The notes under the pieces are model-generated. The model saw only the letters and a list, made by a program, of their open reading frames with translations, ran no database searches and had not been told where the DNA came from. Positions 51,041-63,740 of a stretch of 64,000 nucleotides of DNA are shown in pieces (position 1 is the first letter of the stretch; each line of letters starts with the position of its first letter). Made by a program: the position numbers and the translations under genes. Source of the DNA: Salinimicrobium sediminilitoris (GTDB taxonomy: Bacteria; Bacteroidota; Bacteroidia; Flavobacteriales; Flavobacteriaceae); assembly GCF_020866905.1 (NCBI RefSeq), contig NZ_JAIVCC010000007.1:1-64000 (forward strand), in the 5' to 3' direction.

Positions 51041-51448
51041 TTAGTCTCTCTTTACGGTCCTGATATTTTTTTTGAAATAAAAGTTTAAATAATAAAAAAC
51101 GAGCATAAGCATCATGAGTTCATACCCGCTGATTACTTCTGCGTTTTCTCCCTGAAAAATTATTTCTGCAAAAAATTCGTAAACAAGGAAGAACGCTCCA
51201 AAATTGAATGCGGTCTTAATGCAGCTAGATCTTAAGGTGGCTGTTCTTTCGTTTTCCACTTTTTCTTTTGTAGAAACAAAGAGCAGCAGGGAGATGAGAA
51301 TTATGATCTTCAGGATCCAGCTGAATTTATAGGGATCTAAATTTATAAGCTCAGGATTTGCTGCGTTGACAAACCAGATGCCTATGGCGAGCACAAAAAG
51401 TGCTAAGGCAATCATTTTCCAGTAATGGGGAAGTAGATTTTCTTTCAT
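51041..51448 (-). CDS. Membrane protein, four helices, at the end of a duplicated segment
   Basis: A 135-residue membrane protein. N-terminus MKENLLPHYWKMIALALFVLAIGIWFVNA, then FSWILKIIILISLLLFVS, TAFNFGAFFLVYEFFAEIIF and GYELMMLMLVFYYLNFYFKK. The first 12 residues match the N-terminus of the unrelated lipoprotein encoded at 54170-54943, because both start codons lie in two copies of a duplicated DNA segment. Function unknown. Confidence 0.72.
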   Translation of the reverse strand: MKENLLPHYWKMIALALFVLAIGIWFVNAANPELINLDPYKFSWILKIIILISLLLFVSTKEKVENERTATLRSSCIKTAFNFGAFFLVYEFFAEIIFQGENAEVISGYELMMLMLVFYYLNFYFKKNIRTVKRD

Positions 51449-51973
51449 TATTATTGATTCTTGTGAGTGTATAAAATGACCTTTTAAAATCTAATTTCTG
51501 AAGCTTATTTCTAAAAGACTAACAGCCGGAATCTATTTTCTCTTAAAAATCCGTACATCACTTTCATACTTTACACCATCCACTTCATAAGGTCCGCCAT
51601 TGTGCATCCACATGGTGTTGCTGTCCGGAAAGCTAAACCTAAAGTCCCTTCCCTCGGGCGACACCCTCTTTAGATTATAGATGTCTTCAGATACTTTTGT
51701 CCATTCATAAGTCATGGTGGCGTTTTCATTCAATTTGCACTCCATGATCTCGTTCATATAGTAATGAACCGAATAAAGTTCTCCGTTGTTTTTAAAGGTC
51801 ATTGTTTCCTTCTTAAAACATTCATTTGCCTCATGTTCTTTCGGCTCACCGGTCTCAGGGAATGCCATGGTGCCCCAAAGTTGCCAGTGACCTACTATGG
51901 GATCTTTTGGAGCTTCTTCGGAAGAACAGGAAAATAAAATGATGAGAAATGTTAGTAGTAATAGTTTTTTCAT
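51414..51973. repeat. Segmental duplication, copy 1
   Basis: About 560 bp repeated at 54909-55469 with an offset of 3495-3496. It covers a lipoprotein gene, the spacer and the first codons of the next gene. High identity ends at the lipoprotein start codon on one side and within codon 12 of the next gene on the other. Confidence 0.9.
51533..51973 (-). CDS. Lipocalin-like lipoprotein (paralogue 2 of 3)
   Basis: A 146-residue lipoprotein: MKKLLLLTFLIILFSC with Cys16. Mature domain opens with DPIVGHWQLWGTMAFPETGEP and has ANECFKKETM, GELYSVHYYMNEIMECKLNENATMTYEW, FRFSFPDSNTMWMHNGGPYEVDGVKYESDVRIFKRK. Both internal Cys are present. It is nearly identical in the mature region to the protein at 55029 and more distant from 39240. 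The signal peptide differs from its twin. Lies 19 bp downstream of another lipoprotein gene. Confidence 0.82.
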   Translation of the reverse strand: MKKLLLLTFLIILFSCSSEEAPKDPIVGHWQLWGTMAFPETGEPKEHEANECFKKETMTFKNNGELYSVHYYMNEIMECKLNENATMTYEWTKVSEDIYNLKRVSPEGRDFRFSFPDSNTMWMHNGGPYEVDGVKYESDVRIFKRK

Positions 51974-51992
51974 GCTATTAGTGTATATGGTC

Positions 51993-54169: not shown

Positions 54170-54943
54170 TTAAATATTATTTTCATTGTTCAGGAAGTCG
54201 ATCAGCTTTTGTTGGTGGGGTAAATTCCGGATATATTCTTCCTGTTCCTCCAAATTCATTGGAGGTGCATCGGTCTGATAAAAGCGGATTGATCCGTCTT
54301 TTTGCGGTGCCACCAAAATAAGTCTCCCTGCCCTGAGGTCGAAGAGCCGTGAATTAACTATTGCATATGCGTTTTGATCGGCTAATTGTACTGCAACCCA
54401 GTCCACCCTGCTCCTGGTAGACGTGTTTATGCTCCCTTGTGATAAATAATGAGGATGATTTCTTGATATTGCTGAAACCGGATTTTCATTTTCTTTACCG
54501 TCTGCAATACTTAAAATGGAGAAGTAAACTATAGATTCATCCTCCGGACTTTTAAATAAATGTTTACTATGTTCCCCTTTTCCAATGATGGCGTAATGCC
54601 CTCTAAAAGATTTTCCGGCAATTTCTGTTTTGATAGGTCCGTTCCCATTTCCCGGCGAATCATACATCGGGGTTGGGAAAGGTGAAGGGAAAAGAGGAAG
54701 GTCTTGTGAAGTCAAAGCATCAATATATTCAATCTCCATATTTAGGGTTTCAGTGTCCCAGGTTTCGGAGGAATTAAAATCAGCCGCTTGTTTTTTAGCT
54801 TTCTCTAATGTCCAGAATTGAGTTTCCTGGTTTTCGATCTCAGTCGTCCCGATCTTAGGTGAGCAACTTAAAGTAGTTATCAAAACCAAAAATATTCCTG
54901 GAGCACTTATTTTCCAGTAGTGGGGGAGTAGACTTTCTTTCAT
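54170..54943 (-). CDS. Lipoprotein with an N-terminus donated by a segmental duplication
   Basis: A 257-residue predicted lipoprotein. The signal reads MKESLLPHYWKISAPGIFLVLITTLSC with Cys27; its first 12 residues are shared with the membrane protein at 51041. The mature part has no recognised family: a charged helical block (WTLEKAKKQAADFNSSETWDTETLNMEIEYIDALTS), a Pro-rich stretch (PLFPSPFPTPMYDSPGNGNGP) and a beta-rich region (SRVDWVAVQLADQNAYAIVNSRLFDLRAGRLILVAPQKDGSIRFYQTDAPPM) that suggests a small beta-propeller or sandwich. The last block, MNLEEQEEYIRNL, is helical. The n-region is longer than in most lipoprotein signals here. Confidence 0.75.
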   Translation of the reverse strand: MKESLLPHYWKISAPGIFLVLITTLSCSPKIGTTEIENQETQFWTLEKAKKQAADFNSSETWDTETLNMEIEYIDALTSQDLPLFPSPFPTPMYDSPGNGNGPIKTEIAGKSFRGHYAIIGKGEHSKHLFKSPEDESIVYFSILSIADGKENENPVSAISRNHPHYLSQGSINTSTRSRVDWVAVQLADQNAYAIVNSRLFDLRAGRLILVAPQKDGSIRFYQTDAPPMNLEEQEEYIRNLPHQQKLIDFLNNENNI

Positions 54944-55469
54944 TATTATTGATTTTTGTGATTTTCTAAAATGGCCTTTTTAGGATCTAATTTCTGAAGC
55001 TTATTTCTAAAAGACTAACAGCCGGAATCTATTTTCTCTTAAAAACCCGTACATCACTTTCATACTTTACACCATCCACCTCATAAGGTTCGCCATTGTG
55101 CATCCACATGGTGTTGCTGTCCGGAAAGCTAAACCTGAAGTCCCTTCCCCCGGGCGACACGCTCTTTAGATTATAGATGTCTTCAGATACTTTTGTCCAT
55201 TCATAAGTCATGGTGGCGTTTTCATTCAATTTCCACTCCATGATCTCGTTCATATAGTAATGAACCGAATAAAGTTCTCCGTTGTTTTTAGAGATCATTG
55301 TTTCCTTCTTAAAACATTCATTTGCCTCATGTTCTTTCGGCTCACCGGTCTCAGGGAATGCCATGGTGCCCCAAAGTTGCCAGTGACCTACTATGGGATC
55401 TTTTGGAGCTTCTTCGGAAGAACAGGAAAACATAAGCAGGAGCAAGGGAAGTAGTAATAGTTTTTTCAT
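54909..55469. repeat. Segmental duplication, copy 2
   Basis: Partner of 51414-51973. Between the copies, the lipoprotein signal-peptide codons differ, whereas the mature coding part and the spacer are almost identical. Confidence 0.9.
55029..55469 (-). CDS. Lipocalin-like lipoprotein (paralogue 3 of 3), Cys lost
   Basis: A 146-residue twin of the protein at 51533. I start at the ATG at 55469 (MKKLLLLPLLLLMFSC, Cys16); six extra residues upstream (MMSPKF) are possible. Relative to its twin it has IMEWKLN in place of IMECKLN, so the second conserved Cys is lost while ANECFKK is kept; also ISK for TFK and SVSPGGRD for RVSPEGRD. The loss would prevent an internal disulfide. Likely a recent copy under relaxed constraint. 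Confidence 0.82.
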   Translation of the reverse strand: MKKLLLLPLLLLMFSCSSEEAPKDPIVGHWQLWGTMAFPETGEPKEHEANECFKKETMISKNNGELYSVHYYMNEIMEWKLNENATMTYEWTKVSEDIYNLKSVSPGGRDFRFSFPDSNTMWMHNGEPYEVDGVKYESDVRVFKRK

Positions 55470-55526
55470 GAATTTGGGGGACATCAACCTGAATATTCTT
55501 TCTGTAAAATAGGTTTTTTAATAGGT

Positions 55527-56485: not shown

Positions 56486-59086
56486 CTAAACAATAACTGA
56501 TAAATTGAGTTTGGCTAGTATTTTTTGCGCTTCGAAGTGTTCAGGAACCTCTTCTAAAATATCTCTTGCTAATTTAGCAGCATATTCCTTCTGGGTATTG
56601 TGCAAATAAATCCAACCTAAATTCGTTTTATCCTCATTACTTATCTCTTCAAAATTAGAAGGTTTTGTAGCCAATTCTATAATTGTATTAGAAAGAATTT
56701 TTTTGTGCTCAGTACTTCTGAGAACCTTTAATCGAAGTAAATGGGAATATCTTTTTAATAAATTACTTAATTCAATTTTGGAAGATTGTTCGACATTGCA
56801 AAGATTAATTATAGAATTTATTTCAGCTTCATAATCTTTCTTTTGTTTATATAATTTGATTAGTCTTTTCCAAGCAACTAATGATTGGTTCTCTTCTACT
56901 GCAGCGATATATTTATTACAAGCTTCTATTGCTTCATCAATGAAATTAAATTCCTCTAATAAAGTTGAGTACAATAAATATGTTTTTGGCCGTTTAAGGG
57001 AAAGATATTCCATTATTGGGATAAATTTGTCTATTTGTTCTACCTCGGAGGAAATATCTTTAGCGACTTCTTGGAAAAATTTCGAGATTCTTTGCTCAAT
57101 ACCGCTTTCCAATTCTGTATTTCTTCCAACACCAAATTTCATTAAAATTCCCGCATCCTTTTTTATTGCGAATTGGTGAATGTCTGTTTTGAGCTTTTTT
57201 TCTGCGAATAATTGAGCACTAATTGGTAAACCTAAGAGAACTTCATTCTTTTGAGTAACTGTTTTGTCAACAAGTGAAAATTTATAGAGCTCATCTATTG
57301 CACCTTCAACATTTATTCTTTCCTCAATTGTAGATTTTAAAACTGCTTCAAGCGCTATTTTTGGAATTGAACTTCTCCATGATCCTAGAGTTAGAAAGAC
57401 TCTTTTAGCTGCTGCGGAAAGCTGATTATAGGTTCGTTCGAACAATGCTTGAAGTAAATTTTCTTGATCTGCCATTATTCTTTTTATGTCACCAAGTTTC
57501 TGTTCATTAGCAACTTGACCAAGAAGAATTTTAGCTACATAGGGATGTCCAGAAGATTCTTCGAAGAGTTGGTCTATATATCTAGAAGTAACAATATCAA
57601 AAATTCCCAACTCTTTACTAACAGTAGTAATTAGTTCTTGGAATTCTTCATATTCCATTCCGCCGACGTTTATGGGGTAATCAGCTTTAAATTCATTCAT
57701 TCTTGAGGTAATTAAAACCTTGTTGGGTAACCGAATATGAGTATCCAGCCAATTAAACATACTCAATTGGTCAACAACAGTTTCGAAATTGTCAAAGACA
57801 AAAAGTGAGCTTGTAGATTTATCTTGTAAACTTTGCTTAAACAACTCAACTTTTTCGTCTTCTTTTAATTTAGGGTCTTGAGGACCTATTAATTTGTTAA
57901 ATACGTTAACAACATCTTTTATATCTAATATATCAGGCTGTACTTGTTTGGCACCTAAAGACATTAAATCAATATCACGTGAACTAAACCAAAAAATATT
58001 TTCAAAACGATCTTTGGAACAAAAATCTCTTAAAACTTTAATAGCCAAAGTGGTTTTTCCAATACCTCCTCTACCGATTAAAGTTATAATTGGATGCCTT
58101 TCATTATTTAAGATTTCGTTAAGCTCAGTTTCCAGTGATGCCCGGTTAATATAGACTGTTTGATTTTCTGGTATATTGGTAAAGCAGTTTTCAACTATTT
58201 TTAATTCCTCTAAGCCTTTTGTTTCGCTCTTGGGTAACGTACCAGGTGGTGTTAAATACTTTCTACCACTTTTAATAATTTTTGTTCCTGTTGAATAGGA
58301 CAATGTTTCAAAATTTTCCTTTCTAAAAGATCCATTAGGAAAGAAAAATTCATTTAATTCACTATCAGTGAAAATCAAATCTATTTTTATGGGCTCATTT
58401 ATAAATGTATAAATTCCTGTTTCTAAACTAGCTCTAATTCCTGCAGCACTAGTCAAGTAGGCGAAATTATCGGTATGTTCTGATATTGCTGAAACTCTGT
58501 ATTTCCCAGAAAGGTTTTGACTTAGGAAAGCCCATTGTAATTTAAAAGGTGAGAACCGTTCGCAAATAATTCTAAGTGAAGGACCCAATTTTTTATTTAA
58601 TTCTGTGGCGATTTCAATTGTTATAGCTCCATGACCCCTAGTCTTATTTCTGAGATTGGCAAAATATCCAAACCAAGTTTTTAATTGTAGCTTATTAGTT
58701 CTAACCGAGGGATCTTGACCAATTATTTTTAGACAATCTATTATGGCAGTTACTGCAATATTCTGCCAGCTATCTTTCGAAGTTTTATCATTAAGCTCCT
58801 TCGAATACTTATTGTATTCAATTTTCATTTCTTGAGATGAAGGGCCAGTGAGTAACTCATCTAAGCTACTGCTCCAATCACCTATGCCATTTGCACGGAC
58901 TAATTTATAGTACTGGGTATATTTGTAATTTTTTTGAGATTCACCAAGTCCAGAAAGCATGAACAAGCAAGTTGACTTGGTTATAACCTCACCCAAATAC
59001 ATCAAACTATTAAAGTATGATATTTGTGAATCCTTCTTTTCCAACTCAATTCGGTCCCAAATTTTTTGAAGTAATTGATTTTTCAA
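56486..59086 (-). CDS. STAND NTPase (NB-ARC type) with possible N-terminal HEPN motif and C-terminal helical repeats
   Basis: An 866-residue soluble protein. The N-terminal region (1-310) is unrecognised overall, but LRNKTRGHG contains Arg146-x5-His152, which fits the R-x4-6-H motif of HEPN RNases. A central NB-ARC-like ATPase follows: Walker A GRGGIGKTT (Lys344), FWFSSRD, Walker B SLFVFDNFETV (Asp432), VLITSRMNEF (sensor Arg), GMEYEEFQELI and SGHPYVAKILLGQ, the GxP-type motif. A winged-helix-like block (LSAAAKRVFLTLGSWRSSIP) and TPR-like helical repeats (about 690-860) complete it. This is the layout of signal-triggered immune ATPases (Avs/NLR-like). It is last in a minus-strand cluster with a type IIG enzyme. 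AT-rich. Confidence 0.82.
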   Translation of the reverse strand: MKNQLLQKIWDRIELEKKDSQISYFNSLMYLGEVITKSTCLFMLSGLGESQKNYKYTQYYKLVRANGIGDWSSSLDELLTGPSSQEMKIEYNKYSKELNDKTSKDSWQNIAVTAIIDCLKIIGQDPSVRTNKLQLKTWFGYFANLRNKTRGHGAITIEIATELNKKLGPSLRIICERFSPFKLQWAFLSQNLSGKYRVSAISEHTDNFAYLTSAAGIRASLETGIYTFINEPIKIDLIFTDSELNEFFFPNGSFRKENFETLSYSTGTKIIKSGRKYLTPPGTLPKSETKGLEELKIVENCFTNIPENQTVYINRASLETELNEILNNERHPIITLIGRGGIGKTTLAIKVLRDFCSKDRFENIFWFSSRDIDLMSLGAKQVQPDILDIKDVVNVFNKLIGPQDPKLKEDEKVELFKQSLQDKSTSSLFVFDNFETVVDQLSMFNWLDTHIRLPNKVLITSRMNEFKADYPINVGGMEYEEFQELITTVSKELGIFDIVTSRYIDQLFEESSGHPYVAKILLGQVANEQKLGDIKRIMADQENLLQALFERTYNQLSAAAKRVFLTLGSWRSSIPKIALEAVLKSTIEERINVEGAIDELYKFSLVDKTVTQKNEVLLGLPISAQLFAEKKLKTDIHQFAIKKDAGILMKFGVGRNTELESGIEQRISKFFQEVAKDISSEVEQIDKFIPIMEYLSLKRPKTYLLYSTLLEEFNFIDEAIEACNKYIAAVEENQSLVAWKRLIKLYKQKKDYEAEINSIINLCNVEQSSKIELSNLLKRYSHLLRLKVLRSTEHKKILSNTIIELATKPSNFEEISNEDKTNLGWIYLHNTQKEYAAKLARDILEEVPEHFEAQKILAKLNLSVIV

Positions 59087-59145
59087 AATATTTCTTTTTT
59101 CTAGTTTTAGTTTTTATCGATTATTCCAATCTGGAATCATTTTCA

Positions 59146-59739
59146 TTACATGTTCTTAATTTCCAGTAGATCCCTTATTCTCATTCCACTTTGGTAATTA
59201 GGTTCATTAGTTGATCTAATTAAGCAAGATGGATTGAGCTGGTTTCTTTTTATTTTACTAATGAGTTGGTCTGAATTAAAAGGTCCGTGTTCTTGATAAA
59301 ATTGCATATAGAAGAATTTATTCTGCGGTTCTAAAAAAGTCCTTTTCAAATATTTTACTTCCAAATATCTGACCAGGTCTTCAAAACTATTTATAGAACC
59401 TTTGTATTTGCTCTCATTTACAAAAAAGGCATAACTCTTATCGCCATCTAAGTTCATAACTAAAACATCTTCATTTTTGAAGGATTGCTTCATTAAAAAA
59501 GTCTGGGTTCCGTTTTCAATTAAGAGTGAGTCTGTATTAAGATATTCCCAATTTGCTTTGCTCACTAAACCATTTTCTGCAATTAATAGAATACCTCCAT
59601 CACGAAAGATGTATGTGGTTTTTAAATCTTGTAGATCATTAATCAGGACCCATTGTTGATTTGTTATCAAAGTCAAGTCATCCAGTTTTTTACTGAATTT
59701 TTGAATTTTCGGTACTATATCAGATATAAAAGTTTTCAT
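59146..59739 (-). CDS. Protein with GYF_2-like domain, in the defence cluster
   Basis: A 197-residue cytosolic protein. Residues 20-120 form repeated strand hairpins: QWVLINDLQDLKTTYIFRDGGILLIAENGLVSKANWEYLNTDSLLIENGTQTFLMK, with the W-x-x-x...F-R-D-x-G-x-L-L-I-x-x-N-G pattern found in Bacteroidota proteins of unknown role, then YAFFVNES. Residues 140-195 look like a GYF_2 domain: FFYMQFYQEHGPFNSDQLISKIKRNQLNPSCLIR. GYF domains bind proline-rich peptides. It begins 5 bp after the restriction gene stop and ends 59 bp before the STAND gene, so it is the middle of one transcription unit. It may link the two. AT-rich. Confidence 0.72.
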   Translation of the reverse strand: MKTFISDIVPKIQKFSKKLDDLTLITNQQWVLINDLQDLKTTYIFRDGGILLIAENGLVSKANWEYLNTDSLLIENGTQTFLMKQSFKNEDVLVMNLDGDKSYAFFVNESKYKGSINSFEDLVRYLEVKYLKRTFLEPQNKFFYMQFYQEHGPFNSDQLISKIKRNQLNPSCLIRSTNEPNYQSGMRIRDLLEIKNM

Positions 59740-59744
59740 TATTA

Positions 59745-62700
59745 TTACTTAATTGAATCTTCAACAATCTCAATCTCCTCCTCCGTCAACCCATAAAGCT
59801 CATAAACAAGCCGGTCGATTTCTGCTTCTAAAGAAGAAGTGTCGGCTGCGGGATTTTCATTTTTTAATTGAAGAATATTATCCACAAGTGTGATTATTAC
59901 TTTATTATGATCCTGTTTTTTTGGTATTAGAAATTTTTCAATAGTAGTCTTCTTAAATACAAATGCACCACCCGCCGTTTTTTCTCCTATTATTGAAAAG
60001 TAAAATTGGTATAATTTAGAATTAAACAGAGCGAGAATAAACTTTATAGGTATGGTATCAGAAGTGAGGAAAAATGATGCACTCGTTAAAAGTTTCCGGT
60101 CTTGATCGAGGGAAAAATCCCAACCGCCTGAAATTAACCCCCAAACTATTTTTTCCCTATCAAACAACTCAACGTAACTAGCTGCACATCTTTGTAATGC
60201 ATACCATTCATATCGTATTCCAGTTTCTGATTTATTTCTGCTTTCGAGTTTAGGTTTGAACGATAATAAATGATTATACTCTTCGGCATGGGAATGTTGA
60301 AATTCCTTTTCTGCAACTTCACTTGCTCCTTTAATATTATCATCATTTTGAAGTGGAAAATGCCATGGGACAAAGAGAAGTTTTAAATTGTTATTAGAAA
60401 TTTTATATCTGTTGATGTCTTTCCCTCTAAGAAATGGCTTTGCTATATTTGAATCATAAATAGATGATTTTTCCGATACGATAAAGGCATTGTCAAATCC
60501 TGTAGTAATTCCTCTTCTTATTTCAACAGTCTTATCGGCACTCAGTGGCTTACCCAATTGCTTAAGCTTTGCAACTAAATTTTGCTCATCAATTTTAGAA
60601 AATAGCCACGAATTGTTCGAAAGTAATTTGGCGTCAAGAACTAACATTTCTTCTTTATACCTCAAATTAAATTTTTCCTGGTCTATACTCTCCTCTTTAA
60701 ACTCCAAATATTTAAAAGTTTTTGATGGAGTGTTTTTATCTATGTTTATTATAACACTTGAGACTAGAGCTTCGTCAAAAATTGGAACTAATTCAAAATT
60801 TATAATTTCGTTGACATCGAAAGATTTTAAAAAACTTCGTAATGGTTTGCCGTATTCTGTATTGAAAAATTTATTTGTCGAAATGAAGGAAAAATTGCCT
60901 TTTTCCTGTAAAATTTTAAAAGCTCGTTCGAAAAAGAAGACGCTCAAATCAGCTGTCCCAGAATAAACTGAATACCATTCTCTAAAAATCACGGTTGCAC
61001 CTTGTGATTTTCGCTGTTGAACATACGGCGGATTCCCAATCACCACATCAAAGCCCACATAATCCCCGTTTTCATCCAGCACTTCGGGAAATTCAAAGCG
61101 CCACTCAAAGGCGTTTTCATAGATCTTGTTGTCTTTGATCTCCTGTATCTGGGTTTCCAGTTTTCTACTCTCTTTGGAGAGTTTCTCCAGCTTTTTGTTC
61201 CAGGCGGCTTTTTCCCTTTTTGACTGCTCAAACAGCTGAGTTTGGTTGGCCATTAAAAAGATCTCGCCTTTTACTTTCTCCAGCCTTTTTACCTTGGGAT
61301 CATTTGTGGAGATCTCGCTCCTAAAGTCGTTCTTGATGTCGTGGATGATCTTTTCCATCTCCCGCTTCTGCTCCTTGTTATGGGCGTTGCGATAGGTGTC
61401 CACGGCCACCCGGTAGCTGTCGATATTCCATTTGCTGTCTTTGAGCGCCTTGCTTAAGTCGGCATCCAGGTCAAACCGGGAGATGAGGGAGTTGCCGCAT
61501 TTGATGTTGATGTCGATGTTCGGCAGCGTTTCCAGTTCTGTCTCATTCTTATAATACGCGTTTTTCAGCAGTTCGATCCACAATCTCAGGCGGCAGATCT
61601 TGACAGAGTTCGGGTTGATGTCTACTCCAAAAAGGCAGTTTTCAATGATGTTCTGTTTCTCGTGGAAAAGCGCTTCCTGCACCCGTTGACTTTCCTTTCC
61701 GGAGGGATTGTATTCAAAAAGCTCCCCGTCGTCATCGGTCACGATGAGTTCGTCGTTGACCACTTCCACCTGGTATTCCTTCAGTCTTCTTCCGTGGCGA
61801 TCCTGCAGGATATTCAGGTCATTCTTGATCGCGATCATCTCATTGAGCGCCGAAACCAGGAAATGCCCCGAGCCCACCGCGGGGTCACAGATCTTGAGGC
61901 TGTTGATGAGATCATTCGCCTCCTGCCGATCTTCTATTTTATCATAAAGCGCATCCAGGTCCTTACAGTTCCAGCCTTTGGTCTCATTGAATTTTTGCAC
62001 CACGGCTTTCCTAATGGTCTCGCGGCACATGTACATGGTGATAAAGCCGGGCGTAAAGAAAGAGCCGTCCTTATAGCCGTTGATCTTTTCAAAAATAAGC
62101 CCCAGCACACTGGCGTTGATGAGCGTCTTGTTGTCTTCCTGTATGGTCTCGCCGCCTTCACTGCTAAAGTCGTAGGCGTTGAGAAACTCGAACAGGTACT
62201 CGAGCGCGTTGAGTTCGCCGCTGCGTTTCTTGCCTTTTTTATCCTTCAGCACGGTGGCGCTGTAAATGGGCAGCGTCTTGTCATCGCGCAGGTTGCTGAT
62301 GAACAGCGTGGCGTGCTCAATATCTGTGGGCTCAAACAGCGAAGAGTTGAGATAAGGTACCTTCTCAAAAAGGGCTTTTACGTCTTCATTTCTTTCTGAA
62401 GCTTGCCGCGCCAGCACCTGAAAGAACAACGAGTTGAGATCGTCGTAATTATGGATCCTGTCGAGGCTTAAAAATTCATAGGATTTATCCCCTTTTTGAT
62501 AGGTAAGTAACTGGGCTTCCAAAAGCTTCAGAAACAATATCCTGTTGAGCCACGTGATGCTGAGTTCCAGTCCTACGGAAAAAAGCCTTTCTTCATGTGT
62601 TTCCCCAAACTGCGACGGCTGCTCCAGCCTCCCGATCTTATCCATGCTGTCCAGCTGAATGATCGCGTTCTCCAGAAAAGAACCGGTATTCCGCTGACCT

Positions 62701-63557
62701 TCCTTCTGGCGTTCGATGATCTTCTTGCCGCCCTGTTTGGTTTCGGTTAAACCGATGATGTGCAGCAGTTCGCCATAAAAACGTTTGTCCAGGCTGTTAC
62801 TGTCATTCAAAAATGGCAATTTCAGCAGGTGTTCCGGAGAGAGTAATTTGAACAGCGCGATGAGCTTATTGTCATCCTTCGGATTGTTATTCCGCAGCGG
62901 TTTTTCGTAATTCCGGATATCGAAGTACGTGAACTCCACTTCCTGCTGTATTTCAGCAATAAAAGGTTCGGCTATTTCGCGGTAGAAGAAGTCGGTCGTT
63001 TTCCCGGCCAGCCTTCCGGCTTCAAAATCGGTAAACTGAGCGACGAGTTTTTTGTTTTGTGCAAAGGCCTTTTCAAAGAAGTTGGCGTCAAAGATGAACC
63101 ATTCGTTGATGTTTGTCGCCACCACATATTTCACCTCCAGGTTCTTATGCGAGAGGCGCTCCCGAAGATAATACAATACCAGCTCGTGAAATGCCTTGCA
63201 GTTGATCTTCTCCCGGCTAAGCATCTCGGCCCGGTTGGTGGGTTTCTTGGCTTCAATGATAACCCCCACGCTGGATTTGGCCTTGTTCCCGTTATGAATA
63301 ACAAGATCTGTGCGGCCTTTGGTATTGATAAAGTGGTGAGGATCGTAATACGTTTTTTTCAAAAAATCGGTCACCAGGTTCTTGTGGAACTCCTCACTTT
63401 CAGTATCATTCGTTCTGTCCAGCAGCTGAATGAGATTCTGCTTGAACTGCTCGATCTGCGAACGGTTCGGCTTGACCTTTAAAAAAGCTTTATTGAGTGC
63501 CTTACGCGGCTTAAGTATATGTAAGTTCCCTGTAGTTAAAGACTGTTCTGTCTGCAT
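59745..63557 (-). CDS. Type IIG restriction-modification enzyme (Eco57I-like)
   Basis: A 1270-residue fused endonuclease/N6-adenine methyltransferase. The N-terminal PD-(D/E)xK nuclease has Asp84 in RTDLVIHNG and Glu102-x-Lys104 in VIIEAKKP. A helical connector spans about 250-540. The methylase has SAM motif I DPAVGSGHFLVSAL (near 556) and motif IV NPPYVQQ (near 841). The C-terminal 430 residues (FINKFFNTEYGKP-like block, TRD with RGKDINRYKIS and KIVWGLISGGWDF) should read the DNA target. N6-methyladenine protects, and the same protein cuts unmodified DNA. GC is about 50% up to NPPY and about 25-38% after it: a mosaic. It is first in the cluster with the GYF and STAND genes. Confidence 0.92.
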   Translation of the reverse strand: MQTEQSLTTGNLHILKPRKALNKAFLKVKPNRSQIEQFKQNLIQLLDRTNDTESEEFHKNLVTDFLKKTYYDPHHFINTKGRTDLVIHNGNKAKSSVGVIIEAKKPTNRAEMLSREKINCKAFHELVLYYLRERLSHKNLEVKYVVATNINEWFIFDANFFEKAFAQNKKLVAQFTDFEAGRLAGKTTDFFYREIAEPFIAEIQQEVEFTYFDIRNYEKPLRNNNPKDDNKLIALFKLLSPEHLLKLPFLNDSNSLDKRFYGELLHIIGLTETKQGGKKIIERQKEGQRNTGSFLENAIIQLDSMDKIGRLEQPSQFGETHEERLFSVGLELSITWLNRILFLKLLEAQLLTYQKGDKSYEFLSLDRIHNYDDLNSLFFQVLARQASERNEDVKALFEKVPYLNSSLFEPTDIEHATLFISNLRDDKTLPIYSATVLKDKKGKKRSGELNALEYLFEFLNAYDFSSEGGETIQEDNKTLINASVLGLIFEKINGYKDGSFFTPGFITMYMCRETIRKAVVQKFNETKGWNCKDLDALYDKIEDRQEANDLINSLKICDPAVGSGHFLVSALNEMIAIKNDLNILQDRHGRRLKEYQVEVVNDELIVTDDDGELFEYNPSGKESQRVQEALFHEKQNIIENCLFGVDINPNSVKICRLRLWIELLKNAYYKNETELETLPNIDINIKCGNSLISRFDLDADLSKALKDSKWNIDSYRVAVDTYRNAHNKEQKREMEKIIHDIKNDFRSEISTNDPKVKRLEKVKGEIFLMANQTQLFEQSKREKAAWNKKLEKLSKESRKLETQIQEIKDNKIYENAFEWRFEFPEVLDENGDYVGFDVVIGNPPYVQQRKSQGATVIFREWYSVYSGTADLSVFFFERAFKILQEKGNFSFISTNKFFNTEYGKPLRSFLKSFDVNEIINFELVPIFDEALVSSVIINIDKNTPSKTFKYLEFKEESIDQEKFNLRYKEEMLVLDAKLLSNNSWLFSKIDEQNLVAKLKQLGKPLSADKTVEIRRGITTGFDNAFIVSEKSSIYDSNIAKPFLRGKDINRYKISNNNLKLLFVPWHFPLQNDDNIKGASEVAEKEFQHSHAEEYNHLLSFKPKLESRNKSETGIRYEWYALQRCAASYVELFDREKIVWGLISGGWDFSLDQDRKLLTSASFFLTSDTIPIKFILALFNSKLYQFYFSIIGEKTAGGAFVFKKTTIEKFLIPKKQDHNKVIITLVDNILQLKNENPAADTSSLEAEIDRLVYELYGLTEEEIEIVEDSIK

Positions 63558-63740
63558 GCAGAAATGGGGTTTAGCTGAAACTGCAAAAGCCTGTAGGGAA
63601 AACTTTTACCGGTCCTCTGTTAAAGAGGTCTTAAAAATAGTAATATTTCTAAGATAATATAGCAATGGAGCTATGAAAAAGCTACTATTTTCTTACAGAT
63701 GGGAAGTTTTTTCACAACAAACCCCGGCCTTTATTTTCAT
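63558..63740. other. Spacer upstream of the restriction enzyme gene
   Basis: The promoter region of the defence cluster. No full TAnnTTTG box reading minus was found; nothing else recognisable. Confidence 0.4.

Follow-up and report, generated by a model that had tools for sequence, protein, structure and literature searches.

The window analysed here is a 64,000-nucleotide stretch of DNA from the flavobacterium Salinimicrobium sediminilitoris (positions 1 to 64,000 of contig NZ_JAIVCC010000007.1). Its minus strand carries three open reading frames (ORFs) in series, which encode a restriction-modification (RM) enzyme, a small GYF-like protein and a STAND NTPase. A first-pass annotation, made from the sequence alone, had proposed that the three form a new defence operon in which the enzyme acts first and the STAND protein serves as a backup, with the GYF protein as adaptor between them. 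The ORF coordinates confirmed the run of three genes and its spacing, with gaps of 5 bp (RM to GYF) and 59 bp (GYF to STAND), and a role in defence or conflict would fit each of the three genes. Our analysis points instead to an RM operon that has acquired the STAND gene as a probably portable addition. The genes, in their order on the minus strand, are as follows:

59745..63557, minus strand: type IIG RM enzyme, 1270 amino acids (aa), ATG start; DUF7149, DUF7814, Eco57I methyltransferase and TaqI_C specificity domain
59146..59739, minus strand: GYF-like middle protein, 197 aa, ATG start (ORF list, Pfam, family alignment and profile)
56486..59086, minus strand: HEPN-like/NB-ARC (STAND)/TPR protein, 866 aa, TTG start (ORF list, Pfam, structure model, alignment)

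A scan for Sigma-70 promoters and terminators gave no excess over shuffled sequences, and there were no tRNA genes within the window. When the three proteins were compared with PADLOC (release 2.0.0, dated 2023), the RM gene was matched and the other two had no convincing match; no model reached E <= 0.001 for the middle protein or for the window STAND protein, whose best match was mad8 at E 0.032.

Judged by its sequence, gene 1 is a type IIG RM enzyme, with restriction endonuclease, methyltransferase and specificity domain in one chain. It matched the PADLOC model REase_MTase_IIG (PDLC03612) with 918.9 bits over aa 21-1267, nearly its full length, and DUF7149, DUF7814, Eco57I and TaqI_C were all above the Pfam cut-offs; the fused enzyme of the first-pass annotation was thus borne out, and we saw no evident difference between it and other type IIG enzymes. 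The following features were placed within the gene:

63240..63317, minus strand: motif GRTDLVI...IIEAKKP (aa 81-106), which we take to be a PD-(D/E)XK-like nuclease motif
61860..61886, minus strand: methyltransferase motif I, DPAVGSGHF (aa 558-566)
61023..61034, minus strand: methyltransferase motif IV, NPPY (aa 842-845)
59886..61019, minus strand: predicted target-recognition region, unalignable by blastn with the gene of a congener and low in G+C at third codon positions (GC3)

Motif IV is given here as defined in the available text of PMC3874165. The RM gene of the congener (G007) had 83.5% DNA identity to window positions 61020-63640 and 83.2% to 59749-59885; the specificity region between these two matching stretches gave no blastn alignment, and the homology stopped within 4 bp of the window RM stop codon. 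About 11 bp downstream of the congener gene lies a gene for a 1085-aa ResIII/DEAD helicase (L087:10108-13365, plus strand), not a GYF and STAND pair, and in another relative (G073) the downstream genes encode DUF6119 and DUF2779 proteins. The downstream neighbours of the RM gene therefore differ among relatives, and no flanking synteny was seen between the window and the congener RM gene.

Base composition also changes within the RM gene. GC3 was 0.56-0.73 in the first 800 RM codons and 0.24-0.29 in the AT-rich remainder, that is, RM codons from 901 on, the GYF gene and the STAND gene, against a mean of 0.43 (standard deviation 0.06) across 32 ORFs of the window that are 200 aa or longer; the fall, from 0.69 to 0.27, occurs between RM codons 701-800 and 901-1000. 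This drop suggested a single low-GC cassette of target-recognition region plus cargo, a candidate that was weakened by the 83% match of the last 137 bp aligned. Because the congener is matched once more over these 137 bp, at the 3' end of the RM gene, target-recognition region and cargo may have been exchanged separately. Separately, a viral contig (L103:5057-8707) carried a relative of the type IIG enzyme with 77% identity; judged by eye from its neighbours, this contig is of phage type.

Gene 3 had been described as an 866-residue STAND ATPase with TPR-like repeats, and this description held. NB-ARC scored 39.1 bits against a Pfam cut-off of 23.5, and the TPRs were supported both by a structure model and by a profile search against sequences in the PDB. 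Its features are as follows:

58529..59086, minus strand: N-terminal helical HEPN-like domain (aa 1-186), from the structure model
58631..58651, minus strand: HEPN-type motif R-N-K-T-R-G-H (aa 146-152), with R, N and H invariant in the alignment
57473..58120, minus strand: NB-ARC (aa 323-538), with GRGGIGKT, FDN and GHPY, which we take to be Walker A, Walker B and a GxP-like motif
56489..57139, minus strand: C-terminal TPR-like superhelix (aa 650-866), a putative sensor, from the model and the PDB-sequence profile search

The alignment comprised 12 proteins including that of the window (11 distinct, as those of loci L114 and L115 are identical), with identity down to 32%; the partial proteins of L101 and L102 were left out. 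Invariant in all 12 were R146, N147, H152, most of Walker A, D432-N433 of Walker B, and GHPY. With its profile match, both Walker motifs and the GxP-like motif, the protein is assigned by sequence to the NB-ARC class of STAND NTPases. No ABC ATPase was found in it by Pfam at E <= 1.

The published HEPN signature is Rx4-6H at the end of helix 3, where R is in most cases followed by N, D or H (available text of PMC3710099). The R-x5-H of the window protein lies at the end of model helix 128-148 and fits this rule. Because the motif fits and the N-terminus is helical, we call this domain HEPN-like, an assignment that is probable, not proven. The AlphaFold2 model, built from the window protein and four relatives, had a helical N-terminus over aa 2-177, where predicted local distance difference test (pLDDT) scores ranged from 47 to 80 by block; its TPR-like superhelix was more confident. 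With this model, the best Foldseek match was 6mfv, a STAND protein with a TPR sensor (E 3.8e-8), followed by Apaf-1, CED-4 and plant nucleotide-binding leucine-rich-repeat proteins (NLRs). VIA-align listed no HEPN structure in a comparison that covered mainly aa 476-866 and the N-terminus barely, and a search of BFVD returned nothing informative. When 11 members of the family were compared with PADLOC, three models appeared, each matching one member (E 0.00027-0.00065).

Gene 2 encodes a conserved N-terminal domain (about aa 1-130) followed by a GYF_2-like tail, and belongs to a Bacteroidota family:

59191-59313, minus strand: GYF_2-like tail of the middle protein (aa 143-183), Pfam, sub-threshold

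The GYF_2 domain named by the first-pass annotation is a weak match: the window protein scored 18.7 bits (E 0.0014) and a core-type relative 15.2 bits, against a cut-off of 25.8. A single-sequence structure model was too poor for use (pLDDT 44.6). When the family was set by the first 130 or so residues, the profile found 36 ORFs, two of them on plasmids; 35 loci were fetched, one of which (L064) yielded no ORF in this count. Twenty of the 36 ORFs are 195-199 aa long, and those aligned have the GYF-like tail. Near one of this type (L038) lie a gene for a pyridine-nucleotide-disulphide oxidoreductase, presumably dihydrolipoyl-dehydrogenase-like, and a TraB/GumN-family gene, and ORFs sized like these two recur at several other loci of the type. 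The 14 other genomic members have differing tails or lengths, two with WG repeats. Neighbours were annotated for 6 of these 14, chosen by eye, and so provide a lead rather than a rate: Dnd-like genes with a DndE-HerA-type protein (L049:7935-14891), type I RM genes plus GmrSD (L065:15-9071), MoxR-vWA genes (L062:4481-9013), kinase-AAA and Hsp70 genes (L052:7925-14727), a DUF6119 gene nearby (L037), and a nearby gene with a type II restriction endonuclease match (L059). The N-terminal domain may thus be an accessory that recurs in conflict loci of Bacteroidota. No GYF relatives were found in viral contigs.

The trio did not recur. Whole fetched loci, several of them short or ended by contig edges, were searched with two family profiles and, by tblastn at E <= 1e-3, with all three proteins of the window trio. 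None of the 35 GYF-family loci had the RM or STAND gene, none of 13 loci of RM relatives had GYF or STAND (in L094 the 3' side of the RM gene lies beyond the contig), and none of the 13 other STAND loci had GYF or this type IIG enzyme. The relatives themselves differ in abundance. Among 397 genomes of the family Flavobacteriaceae, and counting the source genome each time, GYF relatives occurred in 30, RM relatives (E <= 1e-100) in 14, from which the 13 other loci were fetched, and STAND relatives (E <= 1e-20) in one, the source genome itself. STAND relatives, again with the source genome included, numbered 3 of 395 in a phylum sample and 4 of 395 in a class sample searched with a four-row alignment, the two samples overlapping in part. 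A further relative, 83% identical and from Dokdonia, came from a scan of genome contigs, and seven loci came from viral contigs; phage records gave no match. Plasmid records gave two partial matches of about 26% that covered the NTPase only, and no match with the STAND copy of viral contig L100 as query. Because the first looks were loose or pattern-based, the STAND counts are lower bounds. A fixed trio or operon was rejected, with no second occurrence in what was searched, and the conserved three-gene system of the first-pass annotation did not survive: relatives of its STAND and GYF genes occur mainly without the restriction gene.

These counts bear directly on the idea that the three proteins form one system, with the GYF protein as an indispensable adaptor linking enzyme and STAND protein. 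The 5-bp gap between the RM and GYF genes would suit such a system, as would the N-domain relatives beside the Dnd-like, type I RM plus GmrSD, MoxR-vWA and kinase-AAA plus Hsp70 genes described above. However, a GYF relative was present in 0 of 13 other STAND loci, and of the 20 loci with the 195-199-aa type none had an RM or Dnd match by tblastn with nine RM/Dnd proteins. With no other STAND locus seen to carry a GYF gene, an adaptor of this kind is not a general requirement, and we regard the three-part system as very improbable. The role of the middle gene is addressed again below.

Thirteen distinct STAND loci were read, window included, and modification-based defence genes adjoin the STAND gene in four of them, all four among the seven loci from cellular collections. 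Besides the window, these are L111, L110 and L067. In L111 the order is hsdM-hsdS-STAND-hsdR in one run, with gaps of 10 and 2 bp on the two sides of the STAND gene; the type I subunits were confirmed by PADLOC and Pfam, and hsdM begins 100 bp from the contig end. As a separate observation, the L111 HsdR protein (L111:4418-8290, minus strand) has a match to an IS200-like Y1 transposase domain (E 5.2e-11), which at aa 416-493 separates HSDR_N from the SNF2 motor. In L110, dndA/sspA lies 380 bp from the STAND start and a dndD/pbeC gene some kilobases upstream.

L067, from Dokdonia, has the STAND gene together with a tyrosine integrase, a relaxase and a ParA-type gene (Pfam), in an element that adjoins an ORF we take by eye to be mnmE-like; no direct repeats marking the right end of this element were found. 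Just upstream of the STAND gene are two stop-free pieces in one frame with stops between them. One resembles an HsdR N-terminus; the other, which ends 16 bp short of the STAND start, resembles an HsdS C-terminus. Both pieces match the same gonococcal record; the two matches lie on one strand, 4.4 kb from each other, and the ORFs there encode HSDR_N and Methylase_S proteins. As the pieces alone have no Pfam match, we regard them as likely, not certain, relics of decayed hsdR and hsdS genes. The window and Dokdonia STAND genes share a TTG start and an A-rich leader, but the DNA common to the two loci is limited to the STAND gene plus 24 bp upstream; their RM neighbours would therefore have been met separately.

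The other loci have different surroundings. L070, L071 and L109 had no RM or Dnd match to the nine proteins, and L071 has a DUF6088 gene and an integrase near the STAND gene. On viral contigs the STAND gene lies near a phage exonuclease/ParB (L100), beside a terminase (L101), beside a portal gene (L102), with an integrase (L112), about 170 bp after a P2-GpA-like replication gene (L113:3642-8419), and beside a baseplate gene (L114, with the same neighbour in L115). Little flank was available on one side in L101, L102, L112, L114 and L115.

In all, the nine RM/Dnd proteins matched 3 of 14 STAND loci (the window, L110 and L111) and, among the 35 GYF loci, two (L049 and L065). The L067 relic was too short to be picked up, and this control is small. 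A tree of 11 STAND proteins placed the window and Dokdonia copies on one well-supported branch and L111 on another, and the RM label needs at least two changes on well-supported branches.

Two further explanations can be weighed against these contexts. One is that the STAND protein is a PrrC-like guard that senses RM integrity directly: the RM enzyme would hold it, and the loss of that enzyme's function to an anti-restriction factor from a phage would release or activate it. The prrC slot lies between hsdS and hsdR, and the L111 order with its 10- and 2-bp gaps is a prrC-like placement; the tight window spacing and, in L067, the 16 bp between hsdS-like relic and STAND start are in keeping with it. 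However, no RM partner was found in the DNA read for the six distinct viral-contig contexts or for genomes G596 and G1049, and the partners that do occur (type IIG, type I and Dnd) are so unlike that no common docking surface is evident. By analogy with PrrC a direct guard may be entertained, but we consider it unlikely.

The other explanation is plain co-location in a defence island, with independent defence genes in one strand run and no functional or regulatory link. It would account for a trio seen nowhere else in what was searched, for the helicase gene that takes the place of GYF and STAND behind the congener RM gene, which is 83% identical on both sides of the specificity region, and for the fact that most STAND and GYF relatives lie elsewhere. 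Less easily accommodated are the association of the STAND gene with modification genes in separate branches and the short gaps in the window and in L111, which suggest shared transcripts. We judge mere co-location possible but doubtful.

The reading that we favour, and hold to be probable, is that a type IIG RM operon here carries a portable, self-sufficient and mobile HEPN-STAND abortive-infection gene as a second line of defence. As part of that reading as a whole, the middle gene would probably not be a core part but a local passenger or regulator, one that belongs to a separate family of Bacteroidota. The type IIG enzyme, judging from its family and motifs, would methylate host DNA and cut unmodified incoming DNA. 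Should infection go on, the TPRs at the C-terminus of the STAND protein could bind a cue from the phage or from damage. Its NB-ARC ATPase would then switch and oligomerise in the manner of NLRs, and the HEPN domain at the N-terminus would stop the infection by cutting cellular or phage RNA. The occurrence of the STAND gene among phage genes and next to modification defences in separate branches, including the gap between hsdS and hsdR, suggests that it moves as a single-gene module. Of the model in the first-pass annotation, the idea that the enzyme acts first, backed up by the STAND protein, is strengthened by the relatives in or beside other modification-based defences; the adaptor role of the GYF protein is improbable.

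Several observations weigh against this reading. No RM or Dnd neighbour was found for 9 of the 13 distinct STAND loci. The L110 STAND gene is divergent from dndA and not co-transcribed with it, and the L067 pieces are 36 and 24 aa long, with E 4e-4 and 0.04 and no Pfam match of their own. That the STAND gene stands alone on viral contigs is qualified by L101, where the gene is cut at the locus edge, and by L102 and L115, which are short contigs. For the N-terminus, no Pfam HEPN family matched in 11 members and no PDB sequence matched, the only hit being unrelated (E 0.32); the AlphaFold2 model is weak overall (mean pLDDT 61). Because the nine query proteins came partly from STAND loci themselves, those matches arise by construction and the tblastn control is weak, and clustering of the RM label on the tree was not significant (87 of 500 shuffles were as low).

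Among the closest known systems is PrrC, a HEPN anticodon nuclease, with EcoprrI, the type IC RM operon in which prrC is embedded (PMC3874165, as far as its available text goes). Shared features are a HEPN-type effector and a P-loop NTPase, encoded in or right after RM genes and proposed as a second line (available parts of PMC3874165 and PMC2610378). However, PrrC has an ABC-type ATPase (PMC3710099, same limit), whereas the window protein has NB-ARC/STAND with C-terminal TPRs, and its family, unlike PrrC, also occurs among phage genes and beside type IIG and Dnd systems. By analogy the STAND protein may work like PrrC, but it is not a PrrC.

The HEPN, STAND-ATPase and TPR proteins of Anantharaman et al. 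2013 (Npun_F6454, MED222_16016 and Desac_1927) have the same domains, with a HEPN of the Swt1/Abi2-type group; S1 domains are also listed for them, and their likeness to the window family is by description only (available text of PMC3710099). That text already describes HEPN-STAND-TPR fusions, as well as the idea that HEPN proteins act as a suicide backup to RM, and gives no RM-embedded example of this architecture. Single-gene NLR-like defences, namely Avs, bNACHT and the TIR-STAND-TPR gene found among defence genes of P4 satellites, share the layout of effector, STAND and repeats in one gene on phages or satellites (PMC9122126, in the part available); the window protein differs in its HEPN-like effector and in having no PADLOC model at the threshold given above. 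In BREX-related DUF499 systems, a HEPN domain fused to a STAND/ORC-type ATPase is a proposed last-resort effector in methyltransferase-based defence (PMC12839542, available text); there, however, the ATPase with its N-terminal HEPN is a core component, whereas the window STAND gene is an extra gene with TPRs. In the available text of open-licence PMC papers, no description was found of this trio or of a STAND gene embedded in an hsd operon.

The locus connects two lines of bacterial immunity, restriction enzymes and NLR-like proteins, by way of a gene that occurs both with phage genes and in or next to modification-based defences of several kinds. If disabled restriction is what is sensed, the guard logic described for PrrC and PARIS (available text of PMC9122126) would extend to bacterial NLR-like proteins and type IIG enzymes. 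A bolder version is that the whole HEPN-NB-ARC-TPR family is a PrrC-type guard that plugs into self/non-self DNA systems of unlike structure (type IIG, type I and phosphorothioation) and triggers RNA-cleaving suicide when any is disabled, the small N-domain/GYF protein being a local coupler in Flavobacteriaceae; this we regard as quite unlikely. Even if the STAND protein is only a stand-alone sensor, it represents a family with no convincing match in PADLOC 2.0.0 and with clear residues for mutation.

Three minor observations were made along the way. On the same contig, outside the window, L072:13001-17488 (minus strand) encodes a 1495-aa protein that reads from its sequence as a UvrA-like ABC protein. 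The Neisseria gonorrhoeae record L104 (NZ_CP119140.1) is filed as a plasmid in PLSDB, and its 2.17 Mb is a chromosome-like size. Within the window, positions 51408-51974 and 54903-55470 form a 568-bp direct segmental duplication with 94.5% identity, overlapping two similar small lipoprotein-like ORFs.

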